NCBI GenBank assembly: GCA_902525625.1
Contig: CABZHM010000008.1
Coordinates: 1-49,003, forward strand
Source of the DNA: an uncultured Pelagibacteraceae bacterium
GTDB lineage: Bacteria > Pseudomonadota > Alphaproteobacteria > Pelagibacterales > Pelagibacteraceae
Direction of reading: 5' to 3'
Length of the DNA: 49,003 bases
The notes below the pieces were generated by a model that was given only the letters and a program-made list of their open reading frames with translations, made no database searches and was not told where the DNA came from. The position numbers were made by a program, and so were the translations under genes. Shown here in pieces: positions 30,833-36,260 of the stretch (positions are counted from its first letter, which is position 1; every line of letters begins with the position of its first letter).

Positions 30833-33703
30833 TTAAGCTGCATCTTCTTTAAATTCATCCATACTAGGACAAGTACAAAAGATATTCTTATCTCCATAAA
30901 CATTATCTACTCTTGCAACTGGTGGCCAAAATTTATTGAATTTTAAAAATTTAGCTGGATAGGCTGCTTCCTGTCTTGAATATTTATGCTTCCAATCATC
31001 TGATGCAAGCTCCATATCTGTATGAGGAGCATTCTTAATTGGATTATCAACTTTATCAAACTTTCCAGATTTAATTCTATCTATTTCTTGTTTGATATTA
31101 ATTAAAGTATCACAGAACCTGTCAAGCTCTGACAAACTCTCACTTTCAGTAGGCTCAATCATCATAGTCCCGGCAACTGGCCATGACATTGTTGGAGCAT
31201 GAAATCCATAATCTATTAATCTTTTTGCGATATCTTCTTCAGTAACTCCAGTCTCAGACTTAATTGTTCTGATATCAATTATACATTCATGTGCAACGTT
31301 ACCTTTAGAACCTTTATATAAAATAGGAAAATGATCTTTAAGTCTATTCGCAATATAATTGGCGTTTAAAATTGCAATTTTAGTAGCTAATTTAAGTCCC
31401 TCAGACCCCATCATCTTAATGTACATCCATGAAATTGACAAAATACTTGAGCTTCCCCATGGAGCAGCAGAAACTGCGCCAATTCCTGTTGCAGGTCCAC
31501 AATCTTTAACAACAGGATGATTTGGCAAATAAACTTGTAAGTGTCTTTTGCATGCAATAGGTCCCATTCCAGGTCCTCCCCCACCATGTGGAATACAAAA
31601 AGTTTTGTGTAAGTTAATATGACAAACGTCTGGACCAAAATTTCCGGGTTTTGCGATTCCTACTAGAGCATTTAAGTTTGCTCCATCCATATAAACTTGA
31701 CCTCCATGTTTATGAATTAAATTACAAATGTCTGATATTTTTTCCTCAAAAACTCCATGTGTAGATGGATATGTGACCATCAATGCTCCAAGGTTTTCAG
31801 AATGTAATTCAGCTTTTTTTTTTAAATCCTCAAAATCAACATTTCCCTCTTTATCGCAATTAACTACAACAACTTTCATTCCAACCATCTGAGCGCTTGC
31901 TGGATTAGTCCCATGTGCTGAGCTTGGTATCAAACATATATTTCTATTTTTTTCATCTCTGTCTAAATGATATTTTCTAATAACCATTAATCCTGCATAT
32001 TCCCCTTGTGCACCTGCATTTGGCTGAAGTGAAACTCCTGAAAAGCCAGTAATTGATCTTAGCCAATTTTTGAGATCTGTGAACATTGTTCTATATCCTT
32101 CCATCTGCTCAATAGGCACAAATGGATGAGGCTCAGCTAATTCTCTCCATGAAATAGGTATCATTTCTGCAGTAGCATTTAATTTCATCGTACATGAGCC
32201 TAGGGCAATCATTGTTCTATTCAGAGCTATATCTTTATCCTCTAGCCTCTTAAGATATCTAAGCATTTCTGTCTCTGAATGATATGAATTAAAAACAGGA
32301 TGTTCTAAGTATTTAGAAGTTCTTAACAAATTTTTTGGTAGATTAGGTAAACTTACTGTAGGATCTTCTTTTTTGATTGACTCCGCAGCGTTAAAAATTT
32401 TCAATAATTGATTTACTCTATAAACATTTTTCTTTTCATCAAAAGAAACGGCAAGTATTTCTGAATTTACTTTTCTTATATTTACTTTTTGAGCTAAAGC
32501 ATTTTTAAAAATTTGATCAGTTTTTTCTTTAGTAATAATTGCTACAGTATCAAAAAAATAATCTGAATATAATTCATATCCAGATTGCTTTATTTTATCA
32601 GCAAAATTTTTTGCTAATTGAGATACTCTTTCAGAAATATTTCTTATTCCATTTGGACCATGGTAAATAGCATATGCTGCAGAAACTATTGCTAATAAAG
32701 CTTGCGCAGTACAAATATTACTTGTAGCTTTATCTCTTCTAATATGTTGTTCTCTAGTTTGGAGTGACAATCTGTAAGCTTTATTTCCATGCCTATCTAC
32801 TGAAACACCAACTATTCTTCCTGGCATAGATCTTTTATATTCATCTTTCGTTGCAAAAAACGCTGCATGCGGTCCTCCATAACCCATTGGAATACCAAAC
32901 CTTTGAGAACTACCAACAGCAATATCAGCTCCAAGCTCTCTTGGTGTTTTTAATTTAGCAAGGGCCAGAAGATCACATGCTAAAATTGCTTTACCATTTT
33001 TTTTATGGATTTTACTTACTGCTTCACTAGGATCTTTAATATCACCTAAAGTTCCTGGGTACTGTAAAATACCACAAACAATATCTTCTTTTTGCTGTTC
33101 TAAAACTTTGTCCTCATTTCCAACAAGAACTTTTAAACCCATAGGCTCTGCCCTAGTTTTTATAACATTAATTGTTTGTGGATGGCAATTTTCTGAAACA
33201 AAAACTAAATTACTTTCACTTTTATTTAGTCTATGACTTAAACCCATAGCCTCTGCTGCTGCTGTACCCTCGTCAAGCAAAGATGCATTCGCAATATCCA
33301 TTCCTGTAAAATCAACAATCATTTGCTGAAAGTTTAATAACATTTCTAATCTACCTTGAGCTACCTCTGGCTGGTAAGGTGTATAAGAAGTATACCAACC
33401 TGGATTTTCTAATATATTTCTTAAAATTACATATGGTGTATACGTTCCATAATAACCCATGCCAATAAAATTTGAGTAAATTTGATTTTTTTTGGAAATT
33501 GCTTTTAGTTTTCTTAACGCTTCATATTCTGAATTCGACTCGCCAATATTGAGTTCACCCTTAAAATGTATTTTTTCTGGTACAGTATTGTTTATTAAAT
33601 CATCCAGAGATTTATAATTTAATTTTTTTAAAATTTTTAATTGATCATCTTCTGAAGGACCGATGTGTCTTTTTAAAAAATCTTTTTGTGAATTTTGTAA
33701 CAT
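30833..33703 (-). CDS. gcvP: Glycine dehydrogenase (decarboxylating), P protein
   Basis: P protein decarboxylates glycine with PLP and loads the aminomethyl group on the lipoyl arm of GcvH. The 956-residue length fits the single-chain form with both halves fused. Landmarks are KDFLKRHIGPSEDDQ at the start, FIGMGYYGTYTP, the glycine-rich QPNAGAQGEYAGL and the PLP lysine in INLHKTFCIPHGGGGPG. Its ATG overlaps the gcvH stop by one base. Control through the glycine riboswitch ahead of gcvT is expected if the operon is one transcript. Confidence 0.97.
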   Translation of the reverse strand: MLQNSQKDFLKRHIGPSEDDQLKILKKLNYKSLDDLINNTVPEKIHFKGELNIGESNSEYEALRKLKAISKKNQIYSNFIGMGYYGTYTPYVILRNILENPGWYTSYTPYQPEVAQGRLEMLLNFQQMIVDFTGMDIANASLLDEGTAAAEAMGLSHRLNKSESNLVFVSENCHPQTINVIKTRAEPMGLKVLVGNEDKVLEQQKEDIVCGILQYPGTLGDIKDPSEAVSKIHKKNGKAILACDLLALAKLKTPRELGADIAVGSSQRFGIPMGYGGPHAAFFATKDEYKRSMPGRIVGVSVDRHGNKAYRLSLQTREQHIRRDKATSNICTAQALLAIVSAAYAIYHGPNGIRNISERVSQLAKNFADKIKQSGYELYSDYFFDTVAIITKEKTDQIFKNALAQKVNIRKVNSEILAVSFDEKKNVYRVNQLLKIFNAAESIKKEDPTVSLPNLPKNLLRTSKYLEHPVFNSYHSETEMLRYLKRLEDKDIALNRTMIALGSCTMKLNATAEMIPISWRELAEPHPFVPIEQMEGYRTMFTDLKNWLRSITGFSGVSLQPNAGAQGEYAGLMVIRKYHLDRDEKNRNICLIPSSAHGTNPASAQMVGMKVVVVNCDKEGNVDFEDLKKKAELHSENLGALMVTYPSTHGVFEEKISDICNLIHKHGGQVYMDGANLNALVGIAKPGNFGPDVCHINLHKTFCIPHGGGGPGMGPIACKRHLQVYLPNHPVVKDCGPATGIGAVSAAPWGSSSILSISWMYIKMMGSEGLKLATKIAILNANYIANRLKDHFPILYKGSKGNVAHECIIDIRTIKSETGVTEEDIAKRLIDYGFHAPTMSWPVAGTMMIEPTESESLSELDRFCDTLINIKQEIDRIKSGKFDKVDNPIKNAPHTDMELASDDWKHKYSRQEAAYPAKFLKFNKFWPPVARVDNVYGDKNIFCTCPSMDEFKEDAA

Positions 33704-34083
33704 TATGTGGAGCTCTCCTTTGCAAATTTATCATATTCATCTTTATTCATTAAAGTATCCATCTCTGACTTATCTTTAATTTTCAATTTAAAGAACCAAG
33801 CAGAGTTTTCTGGATCCTGATTTATTTTTGATGGGTCATCAACAATAGATTGATTTAAATCAACAACTTCACCACTTACCGGTGTATACACGTCACTTGC
33901 AGCTTTTGTAGATTCAACTACCCCTGCTGTTCCATCTTTTTCTATATTAGATCCTTTATCTGGAAGTTCTGTAAAAACTATATCTCCGAGCAATTCTGTT
34001 GCATGCCTAGTTATCCCGATAGTGGCAATATCTCCCTCTAATTTAATCCACTCATGTTCTTTAGAATATTTTACTTCATTCAT
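33703..34083 (-). CDS. gcvH: Glycine cleavage system H protein
   Basis: GcvH carries the lipoyl arm that shuttles the aminomethyl group between P, T and L proteins. The 126-residue protein has [22 protein letters not shown] and the lipoylation motif [16 protein letters not shown] with Lys60. It overlaps gcvP and gcvT by one base at each end, so the three are tightly coupled. The L protein (lpd) is not in this window. Confidence 0.97.
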
Positions 34084-35186
34084 TAATTAACTCCCTTTAC
34101 ATAACTTTTTTTATAAAAAGGCAAACCACAAATTGTAGCTGGATGTTTTTTACCTCTGACCTCTAAAAATATTTTAGTATTTTTCTTTGAAAATTCATTT
34201 TCCACGTATCCCATGGCCACAGGGCCATTAACACTTGGTCCAAACGTTCCGCTTGTTATTTCGCCAATTTCTAAATCGGATTCATTGTATATTTTAGTTT
34301 TTTCTCTAGCAATTATTCTTCCCTCAGGCTTTATCCCTACTCTTATCTTGCTCACTCCATTGTTTAATTGATTAATAATTATATCTGATCCAATAAAGTT
34401 ACCTTTTAAAATTCTCTCTTTTGAAATAGCCCATTTCAAATTTGCCTCAACTGGAGTCTTGTCTTTACTTAGTTCATGACCATACAAGCATAGACCAGCT
34501 TCCAATCTTAATGTATCTCGTGCTCCAAGACCAATTAATTTTGCACCTTTATCAATTAATCTTCTTGTAAACCCGTCTGCAAATTCATTAGTTAGTGATA
34601 CCTCAAAACCATCTTCACCTGTATATCCTGATCTTGTAACATAAATATTGTGGTCATCCAGTGTGAACCAATTACCTGACATGAAATTTAAATTTTCAAC
34701 ACCTTGAATAACACTTTTAAGAATTTGTACAGATTTGGGTCCTTGGATTGCAATTAAAGATTTATCCTCATCCATGATCATTTTATATTTATTATTTAAT
34801 AGTCCCTTTAAAATTTTATAATCATTTTCTTTACAAGCAGCGTTTAGAATTATTAAAAAACCATCTTTAATTTTAGTAATTATTAAATCATCGTAAATTC
34901 CAGCATTGTCGCTCATTAAAAAACTATATTTTGAGTGATTTAGTTTTAAATTTTTTAAGTCTAGTGGAAAAATTCTCTCTAAATCATCAACTAAATCCTC
35001 TCGGCCATAAATAAATAATTGACCCATATGCGAAACATCAAAAATACCAGAATGGTTTCTTGTGAACCTATGTTCTTCAACAATACCCTCAGAATATTGA
35101 ATTGGCATTTGATATCCTGCGAATTCTACAAATTTTGCTTTGCTGTCTTGATGCAATTGATAAAGCGATGTTTTTTTTGTATCCAT
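34083..35186 (-). CDS. gcvT: Aminomethyltransferase, T protein
   Basis: GcvT transfers the methylene group from GcvH to tetrahydrofolate, releasing ammonia. The 367-residue protein has [26 protein letters not shown], the folate-binding [31 protein letters not shown], and GPVAMGYV near the end. It begins at ATG 35186 directly after the tandem glycine riboswitch; the start codon and the AGAG upstream of it can pair with a 12-base complement between the two aptamers. Confidence 0.97.
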
Positions 35187-35270
35187 ATTAACTCTTTTTA
35201 CCCATCTGTATATTTGCCTGAGAGTTTTGCTCCTTCGGCGAGAATTTAATCTCTTTCCAGAGTTAATATG
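35184..35270 (-). promoter_or_regulatory. Candidate gcvT ribosome-site sequestering helix
   Basis: In the mRNA, AGAGUUAAUAUG (35195 to 35184, ending with the gcvT start codon) is perfectly complementary to CAUAUUAACUCU (35270 to 35259), which lies between aptamer 1 and aptamer 2. The last three bases of the latter (35261-35259) also belong to the aptamer-2 P1 stem. The two pairings therefore compete in part, which makes this the likely expression platform. This is read directly from the sequence; the functional meaning is inferred. Confidence 0.65.
35205..35261 (-). ncRNA. Glycine riboswitch, aptamer 2
   Basis: The mRNA-sense strand has GGAAAGAG, then CGCCGAAGGAGCAA, then CUCUCAGGCAAA, the three conserved blocks of the glycine aptamer, closed by a short P1 UCUG (35261-35258) with CAGA (35208-35205). 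It lies 19 bases before the gcvT start. Confidence 0.9.
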
Positions 35271-35271
35271 T

Positions 35272-35346
35272 TACGGTCCATTTTGCCTGAGAGATTCCTG
35301 GGTGGTTGCTCCTTCGGCGCTACAAAAATTTGTAGTCTCTCCCGTA
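35272..35346 (-). ncRNA. Glycine riboswitch, aptamer 1
   Basis: The mRNA-sense strand has GGGAGAG, a hairpin made by CUACAAA and UUUGUAG, then CGCCGAAGGAGCAA and AUCUCUCAGGCAAAAUGGACC, all conserved in the family. P1 is UACGG (35346-35342) with CCGUA (35276-35272). Together with aptamer 2 it forms the usual tandem arrangement found ahead of gcv genes. Glycine is the known ligand of the class. The upstream stretch 35347-35387 is AT-rich and should hold the promoter; a TATGAT hexamer (35366-35361) is a possible -10 with no clear -35. Confidence 0.92.
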
Positions 35347-35387
35347 GTTAATTTCTTTATATCATAAATTAACATAAACATAAATCT

Positions 35388-36260
35388 TTAATATGCTTTC
35401 TTTTTATTTAAAAATTTATTCAAAAACTGCAAAACAACTGCAGTGATAACTATTGAGCCCCCAATTAAAACAAACATAGGCGGATTTTCATTCGCAAACA
35501 TCCAGGCCCACAATGGACCTAGAACAGCTTCTGTCAACATGATTATACCAACAAAAGCCGAAGGAGTTGACCTTGCACCAATTGTAATAAATATAAAACC
35601 AAAACCTAATTGAAAAAAACCTGCTAAAAATCCCAAAAAAATATCTTTTGAGGATATAATTATTGTTGGTGACATCAATAATCCAATTATCATTGCAAAT
35701 ATACCTGCCACTAATTGAAGTGGAATCATATCGACCTCAGGATACTTTCTTACAATTAATATTAAAATTGCAAAAGAAATAGGCATTACAAATGCCACAA
35801 GATTGCCTGTCATTTCACCAGGTGAGATTGAAGTTCCAAGCATCAAAAAAATACCTGAGATAGCAAGCAATATACAAAAGAAAGTAAGTTTAGATATTGT
35901 CTCCTTTAAAAAAACATAACCAAATATTGCCAAAAAAAGAGTTTGTGTTTGAATAATAAAATTTGTATTTGCCACAGTAGTTTCATACATAGCAAATACA
36001 TAACTAGCAAAACCTAAAGATAAAATAGCTCCACCAATAAATCCTGGAATTCCAGATTTAGTTAGAGCACTAAAAAATTTTTTTTTATAAGTGAAAAAAA
36101 GAAAAAAACTAACAACAATTATAAAAAAAAATGATCGCCAAAATAAAATTTGCCATAATGTTGATCCTTCAAAAGACTTAACAATTAATCCTCCAAAACT
36201 TAAGCTTACAGCACCAAAAAAAACCAGAAAAGGTCCAGGTAATGTTTTAATCACATTCAT
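35388..36260 (-). CDS. EamA/DMT-family transporter in the pxpBC operon
   Basis: A 290-residue protein with about ten hydrophobic helices and two EamA repeats (for example VSLSFGGLIVKSFEG near the start, ANTNFIIQTQTLFLAIFGYVF and PSAFVGIIMLTEAVLGPLWAW at repeat ends). Its ATG overlaps the pxpC stop by four bases, so it belongs to the pxpB-pxpC operon. Uptake or export of 5-oxoproline or a related amino acid is a guess from that linkage. About 40 bases separate its stop from the gcvT riboswitch. Confidence 0.85.
   Translation of the reverse strand: MNVIKTLPGPFLVFFGAVSLSFGGLIVKSFEGSTLWQILFWRSFFFIIVVSFFLFFTYKKKFFSALTKSGIPGFIGGAILSLGFASYVFAMYETTVANTNFIIQTQTLFLAIFGYVFLKETISKLTFFCILLAISGIFLMLGTSISPGEMTGNLVAFVMPISFAILILIVRKYPEVDMIPLQLVAGIFAMIIGLLMSPTIIISSKDIFLGFLAGFFQLGFGFIFITIGARSTPSAFVGIIMLTEAVLGPLWAWMFANENPPMFVLIGGSIVITAVVLQFLNKFLNKKKAY

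Follow-up and report, generated by a model that had tools for sequence, protein, structure and literature searches.

The locus analysed here raises the question of how a tandem glycine riboswitch, placed directly before a glycine cleavage operon, controls the genes that follow it. SAR11 bacteria are among the most abundant marine bacterial groups, and glycine is central to their carbon use. Glycine/serine reliance of SAR11 subclade I isolates is described in passages of PMC10030771. The window, by which the whole 49,003-nt stretch of Pelagibacteraceae DNA is meant, carries on its minus strand a gene for an EamA-type transporter (35388-36260), followed after a 201-nt gap by gcvT (34083-35186; TIGR00528, 328 bits; PF01571 and PF08669), gcvH (33703-34083; TIGR00527, 145.5 bits) and gcvP (30833-33703; TIGR00461, 1443 bits). 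The gcvT ATG at 35186-35184 is the first codon of ORF 34083-35186. The gap contains two glycine riboswitch aptamers (Rfam RF00504), aptamer 1 at 35264-35354 with 62.5 bits and aptamer 2 at 35196-35270 with 46.3 bits, both above the Rfam gathering threshold of 32 bits; cmscan lists aptamer 1 alone, and the second match came from a separate Rfam profile search. A pair of aptamers side by side ahead of a glycine cleavage operon is the arrangement of the gcvT class of ON switches. The same order, with a membrane protein, then a glycine riboswitch and then gcvT, appears for 'Cand. Pelagibacter ubique' in a table of PMC2704228. A second tandem glycine riboswitch is found on a different contig of the same genome, before a gene for malate synthase G (Pfam). 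The gcvH start at 34083 reads GGGAGUUAAUUAAUG, a ribosome site resembling that of gcvT, with no riboswitch in front.

An earlier interpretation of this DNA, the sequence-only reading, had proposed a switch that works without a terminator. In agreement with it, a scan of 34900-35500 gave a single terminator-like site, at 35426-35444 within the upstream gene, and none between aptamer 2 and gcvT; terminator-based switching was rejected on this ground. The linker between the aptamers offers another candidate expression platform: its sequence CATATTAACTCT (35270-35259) is a perfect 12-nt complement of AGAGTTAATATG (35195-35184), exactly as had been claimed for the SD-like AGAG and the AUG. The linker strand CAUAUUAACUCU (35259-35270) and the start strand AGAGUUAAUAUG (35184-35195), which comprises the SD-like AGAG, the spacer and the gcvT AUG, are both defined by sequence and covariation. 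UCU at 35261-35259, together with G35258, is able to pair with CAGA at 35208-35205, which forms P1 of aptamer 2, hereafter P1(II), with UCUG (35258-35261) as 5' strand and CAGA (35205-35208) as 3' strand. Positions 10-12 of the helix are therefore P1(II) bases, as had also been noticed before, and the linker UCU has two possible partners, the AGA of CAGA in P1(II) or the AGA of the ribosome site.

Twelve is the length of the longest Watson-Crick complement between the 21-nt start region and the 175 nt upstream of it. Such a complement is unlikely to have arisen by chance, because only one of 5,000 dinucleotide shuffles of these 175 nt reached 12 bp or more (it reached 13). Among 50 ORFs in the window that were called mechanically from an ATG and reach 120 aa or more, the gcvT start ranks first with 12, the next having 10. 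The minimum-energy fold of 35160-35370 (-45.6 kcal/mol) includes the entire 12-bp helix, with a z-score of -3.46; one of 200 shuffles equalled or bettered its energy. With G-U pairs allowed, a 14-base run also links the start region to sequence about 190 nt upstream of the AUG, a position beyond the transcript starts known from SAR11, for which reason this alternative partner was set aside. Passages of PMC5069720 describe SAR11 glycine-riboswitch transcripts in situ whose 5' ends lie at P1(I) or no more than 15 nt ahead of it and which run into gcvT. AGAG precedes four of the 53 ATG starts in the window, against one and one in two control stretches, and Shine-Dalgarno use in the window looks weak. 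The 16S-end pattern used for the anti-SD gave no match in the genome to which the window belongs, and the question of SD use therefore rests on the window counts.

Conservation of the helix was evaluated in 225 parsed tandem leaders (208 before gcvT and 17 before glcB, genomes being repeated among them). The 208 gcvT leaders comprise 153 distinct sequences, of which 150 were aligned; L265, L283 and L287 were left out. The helix pairs in 97.8% of 1,800 cells. Double-sided changes occupy 97 cells, at alignment column pairs 59/160, 60/159 and 63/156, against a shuffled mean of 31.4 and 0-2 for slid partners, and the covariation score is 0.205 against 0.103 for shuffles. Neither the count of double-changed pairs (three) nor that of further pair types (13 vs 11.7) exceeds shuffles in this alignment, so that its signal lies in the paired cells, the double-changed cells and the covariation score. 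Of the 150 leaders, 13 lack the outermost pair and 21 the innermost. The parsers demanded TCTGGAAA (or C/TTCTGGAAA), which fixes the P1(II) 5' strand and linker-side positions 10-12 of the helix. UCUG is constant in 150/150 leaders under this requirement, and CAGA, the rival of AGAG for UCU, is constant in 150/150 free of it; given this invariance, the alignment is evidence neither for nor against P1(II).

A second sample was arranged on a GcvT protein tree computed with FastTree. From 169 loci tried, 153 were parsed and 16 failed (several of them glcB or cut short), giving 143 distinct loci, 142 usable leaders and 282 branches; L335 was left out as it has no GUU[AU] anchor, the start of L034 was set wrongly (offset 4), and compensations were counted irrespective of branch supports. 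Positions 3-11 are paired in 138-142 of the 142 leaders, position 2 in 134, position 1 in 122, and the twelfth pair is kept in 131 and lost in 11. Just outside the helix, positions 0, -1 and -2 pair in only 49, 41 and 76 of 142 leaders (29-54%). An unbroken run through position 9 measures at least 8 bp in 141 leaders and at least 10 bp in 135. Compensations on the same branch were counted at positions 1 (two), 2 (two), 4 (one), 5 (two) and 6 (one). A lone leaf, L007, accounts for one each at positions 1, 2 and the outside position 0, and these may reflect misplacement of the leaf; with L007 excluded, six compensations are left, at positions 1, 2, 4, 5 (two) and 6, none of them outside the helix. 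Compensatory changes in SAR11 gcvT leaders, which the sequence-only reading had suggested looking for, are thus present on the tree. Among 37 distinct 9-bp duplexes, 307 of 333 cells are paired, a value that none of 5,000 shuffles reached (mean 254.5, maximum 276).

Deeper genera use other duplexes, such as AAUAAAC/GUUUAUU in genus g9, UUAUAUAAC/GUUAUAUAA in g5 and AUUAAAAC/GUUUUAAU in g12 (L330). The helix is near-universal among the SAR11 gcvT leaders parsed, the exceptions being L335, with no clear helix, and L336, with only 7 bp. The ribosome site pairs with riboswitch sequence in a way supported by covariation, as expected of a translational riboswitch that masks it. Inspection by eye found the helix kept in eight leaders whose aptamer 1 has an unusual 5' part, or one that seems to have been replaced (L171, L172, L219, L228, L194, L195, L199 and L205). 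Among 140 near-complete SAR11 genomes, at the thresholds used, a glycine riboswitch match is missing from 19 and a GcvT match from 20, and some, for example G368, G378 and G184, have a riboswitch match but no GcvT match.

The position of the start codon varies more than the helix does. The distance from the anchoring G to the A of the start codon is 6 nt in 103 leaders, which places this A within the helix, and 8-14 nt in 35. Of these 35, 29 have the AUG wholly outside the nine-pair stretch, and in the other six its A alone overlaps. Nine of nine Watson-Crick pairs are formed in 26 of the 29 leaders with an outside AUG and in 27 of the 35 shifted ones, compared with 64 of the 103 unshifted; in the remaining eight shifted leaders the stretch contains a wobble or one or two mismatches. 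At position 1, formerly the G of AUG, the shifted leaders have exchanged C-G for U-A or A-U, and their starts carry new helix letters, among them UGUAAUAAC/GUUAUUACA, AAUAUUAAC/GUUAAUAUU and the UUAUAUAAC/GUUAUAUAA pair of g5. Since the helix outlasts displacement of the AUG, it is the helix and not the AUG that is kept by selection, and the start AUG is ruled out as the conserved target. The earlier suggestion that the helix could hide both ribosome site and AUG consequently stands for the SD-like GAG and the spacer, which it covers judging from the sequences, and has to be given up as a rule for the AUG, usually but not always included and lying outside in 29 of 142 leaders. These lineages are natural experiments that set masking of the SD-like site against masking of the AUG.

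The direction of switching was addressed by folding models, which contain no glycine, tertiary contacts or pseudoknots. In 181 leaders, anchored at the first GUU[AU] after P1, holding P1(II) gives an ensemble whose energy is higher, by a median 5.5 kcal/mol, than when the inner pairs of the helix are held; this anchor is wrong in some leaders (e.g. L230), which blurs the SD figures. With P1(II) held, the median unpaired probability rises from about 0 to 0.67 for the SD-like bases and only to 0.06 for the AUG. The proposal that P1 peels the helix from the AGAG side is thus supported by the models for the SD-like bases; the AUG stays mostly paired, and its release would have to come from the ribosome or from aptamer docking. 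In a further computation on 141 of the 142 tree leaders, anchored at the last GUU[AU], the median cost of opening the start site is 8.8 kcal/mol without and 4.2 with P1(II); P1(II) reduces it in 139 of 141 leaders, with a median gain of 4.5 kcal/mol at 37 °C. At 20 °C the costs are 11.7 and 5.9, with a reduction in 138 of 141 leaders and a median gain of 5.1. Forming P1(II) itself costs a median 5.7 kcal/mol in the energy model, which glycine and tertiary contacts would have to pay. Exclusion between the helix and P1(II) is partial, positions 10-12 being shared while nine pairs can stay. These energies suggest the ON direction, which the sequence-only reading had named first, and do not give the size of the effect.

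Taken together, the sequences and models make it likely that the gcvTHP operon is controlled by a translational ON tandem glycine riboswitch whose expression platform is the inter-aptamer linker. As the linker-start pairing is kept while its letters change, glycine probably turns the gcv genes on by loosening this pairing. Without glycine, the linker and the P1(II) 5' strand would form a helix of about 12 bp, enclosing aptamer 2, with the SD-like GAG and the spacer of gcvT and usually with its AUG as well. On glycine binding, aptamer 2 would form P1 (UCUG/CAGA), aided by docking on aptamer 1 and by the P5 pseudoknot, and P1 would reclaim UCU from AGAG, freeing the SD-like bases. The residual 9-bp, A-U-rich helix could then be opened by the ribosome or by aptamer docking, which would finally expose the AUG and allow more protein to be made.

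The persistence of the helix where the AUG is displaced would also fit a constitutive structure, an extension of P1(II) that helps the leader to fold or shields it, from RNases for instance, with access to the start independent of glycine. Nine of the twelve pairs are compatible with P1(II), and the AUG is mostly paired even when P1 is held. This explanation is nevertheless quite unlikely, for bases 10-12 are common to P1(II) and the helix and both cannot be complete at once. An extension of P1 needs no AGAG/CUCU, yet position 10 pairs in 142 of 142 leaders and position 11 in 140, the linker letters being fixed by the parser and the start-side letters free. A helix covering the start would, moreover, be expected to depress translation.

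The P5 pseudoknot, invoked above for the glycine-dependent release of the start, is present in this leader: ACCCA in the P3b loop of aptamer 1 (35299-35303) can pair with UGGGU (35200-35204), which lies immediately 3' of P1(II), as judged from sequence and covariation. In the 150 aligned leaders, 91.0% of 597 cells are paired, and the 44 double changes all belong to one pair, at which 42 cells are unpaired in this register; with the tracts slid by +1, pairing is still 78.2%, with six double changes. P5 types in SAR11 include CCCC/GGGG, GCCC/GGGC, CCCUA/UAGGG and CCCAA/UUGGG. L074, a Rhodobacteraceae record, has P5 as CCUC/GAGG, a double change outside SAR11. P5 is already known and not new here; passages of PMC13104608 describe it and, citing Torgerson et al., report it in 66% of aminomethyltransferase glycine riboswitches and its absence from OFF versions. 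In the proposed mechanism it would link aptamer 1 to the strand that has to prevail in the exchange. A P0 helix with a kink-turn is frequent, not universal, in tandem glycine riboswitches. Leader-linker runs in the 142 leaders gave no P0 signal (mean 4.59 vs 4.51 shuffled), and at this shuffled level P0 was rejected as a rival partner of the linker.

Outside SAR11, 29 of 61 gcvT loci gave a parseable tandem riboswitch and 32 did not. All in-frame ATG, GTG and TTG candidates were considered, the best of one to four starts being taken per leader. By the same measure, runs of at least 8 pairs occur in 141 of 143 SAR11 leaders and of at least 10 in 135, while 25 of the 29 non-SAR11 leaders have at most 7; the four others are L067 (8), L069 (8), L090 (9) and L057 (11). 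A simpler control, with the tblastn match start as an approximate gene start, gave no non-SAR11 run above 7. The runs of L067 and L069 are ordinary, being matched by 626 and 770 of 5,000 shuffled linkers. That of L090 is equalled in 84 of 5,000 and lies at a TTG upstream of the likelier ATG start. In L057, a Rhodospirillaceae record, 11 linker positions (two as G-U) pair with the bases immediately preceding a candidate TTG start (locus position 1968), 65 nt after P1(II), and 8 of 5,000 linker shuffles equal this run; it may be an independent case or chance. Given this 11-bp pairing, a strict restriction to SAR11 is not borne out, and the helix is typical of SAR11 and rare elsewhere in the 29-leader sample.

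The same comparison bears on a further explanation, namely that the start strand is no more than an efficient ribosome site and its linker complement is inherited or drifting, or that the helix acts as a thermometer independent of glycine. The start strand alone is not peculiar, since the non-SAR11 leader L074 has the start GGAGUUAAUAUG with no matching linker, and the residual helix is A-U rich. The concentration of runs of at least 8 pairs in SAR11 (141/143 against 4/29 non-SAR11 tandem leaders) and the joint change of both strands on the GcvT tree, the linker being non-coding, render this very unlikely. Least probable of all is the OFF switch that had been offered as the alternative, in which P1(II) and the nine remaining pairs stack with glycine to seal a start that is looser without it: enforcing P1(II) on the window sequence does give this stacked form as the minimum-energy fold, but the helix without P1 has three more pairs, not fewer, and costs more to open in the leaders folded, P5 is present here and reported absent from OFF versions, and induction by glycine is what would be expected of glycine cleavage genes.

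Already known are the riboswitch, its genes and its SAR11 setting, and the title of Tripp et al. 2009 reportedly calls a riboswitch glycine-activated. Glycine riboswitches on glcB and gcvT, of the same class and in the same organism group as the window, have been described as to presence, genes and transcript starts in parts of PMC2211319, PMC2704228 and PMC5069720. No description of a linker-start helix in SAR11 was found in the portions of the glycine-riboswitch literature searched. The locus shares with tandem glycine ON switches of the gcvT class (RF00504) the two aptamers, the downstream gcv operon and P5, as far as passages of PMC13104608 describe them, and differs from them in that no P0 was detected and the linker pairs with the ribosome site. 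A close parallel in those passages is Neisseria gonorrhoeae gcvT, a translational glycine ON switch with its start masked by aptamer-2 sequence, no kink-turn or P0 and a possible P5; release by glycine is known there and would apply in SAR11 too. The mask proposed for N. gonorrhoeae consists of nucleotides of aptamer-2 P1, P3 and P3a and covers the bases immediately 5' of the AUG, whereas at the present locus the inter-aptamer linker and the P1(II) 5' strand would form the mask, 12 bp including the AUG. The Bacillus subtilis gcvT tandem, as cited in PMC13104608, is likewise an ON switch by helical switching, and has been studied via transcription termination, whereas no terminator was found between aptamer 2 and gcvT here.

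The helix provides a concrete, covariation-backed mechanism for possible glycine control of gcvTHP translation in SAR11, and the inter-aptamer linker, elsewhere part of the kink-turn joint, gains a second role. A bolder version, which is rather unlikely as a whole, would have the linker of the P0/kink-turn joint converted in SAR11 into an anti-ribosome-site strand, with the quaternary fold itself as expression platform: docking, pinned by P5 beside P1(II), would take UCU and pull the linker off the start in a two-stage release, of the SD-like site by strand exchange and then of the AUG by docking.

Leaders before glcB show a weaker version of the helix in the genus of the window (L002, at G000 contig C11:32801-32953, L245-L253 and L359-L375). 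Among 32 distinct glcB leaders, 25 pair CAUAACAC of the linker with GUGnUAUG of the start (one of them with a G-U) around one constant central mismatch, A opposite C, A or G, and one, L331, has a 9-pair helix like that of gcvT. Six leaders of the g4 type show no clear linker-start pairing, and hence not all SAR11 glycine switches need the helix. In these six (L255, L262, L264, L373, L374 and L377) the linkers are variable and the start is mostly constant (UUGGUGCUAUAUG in five of six); the partner of their GGUG might be CACC of aptamer 2 instead, which would resemble the Neisseria model.
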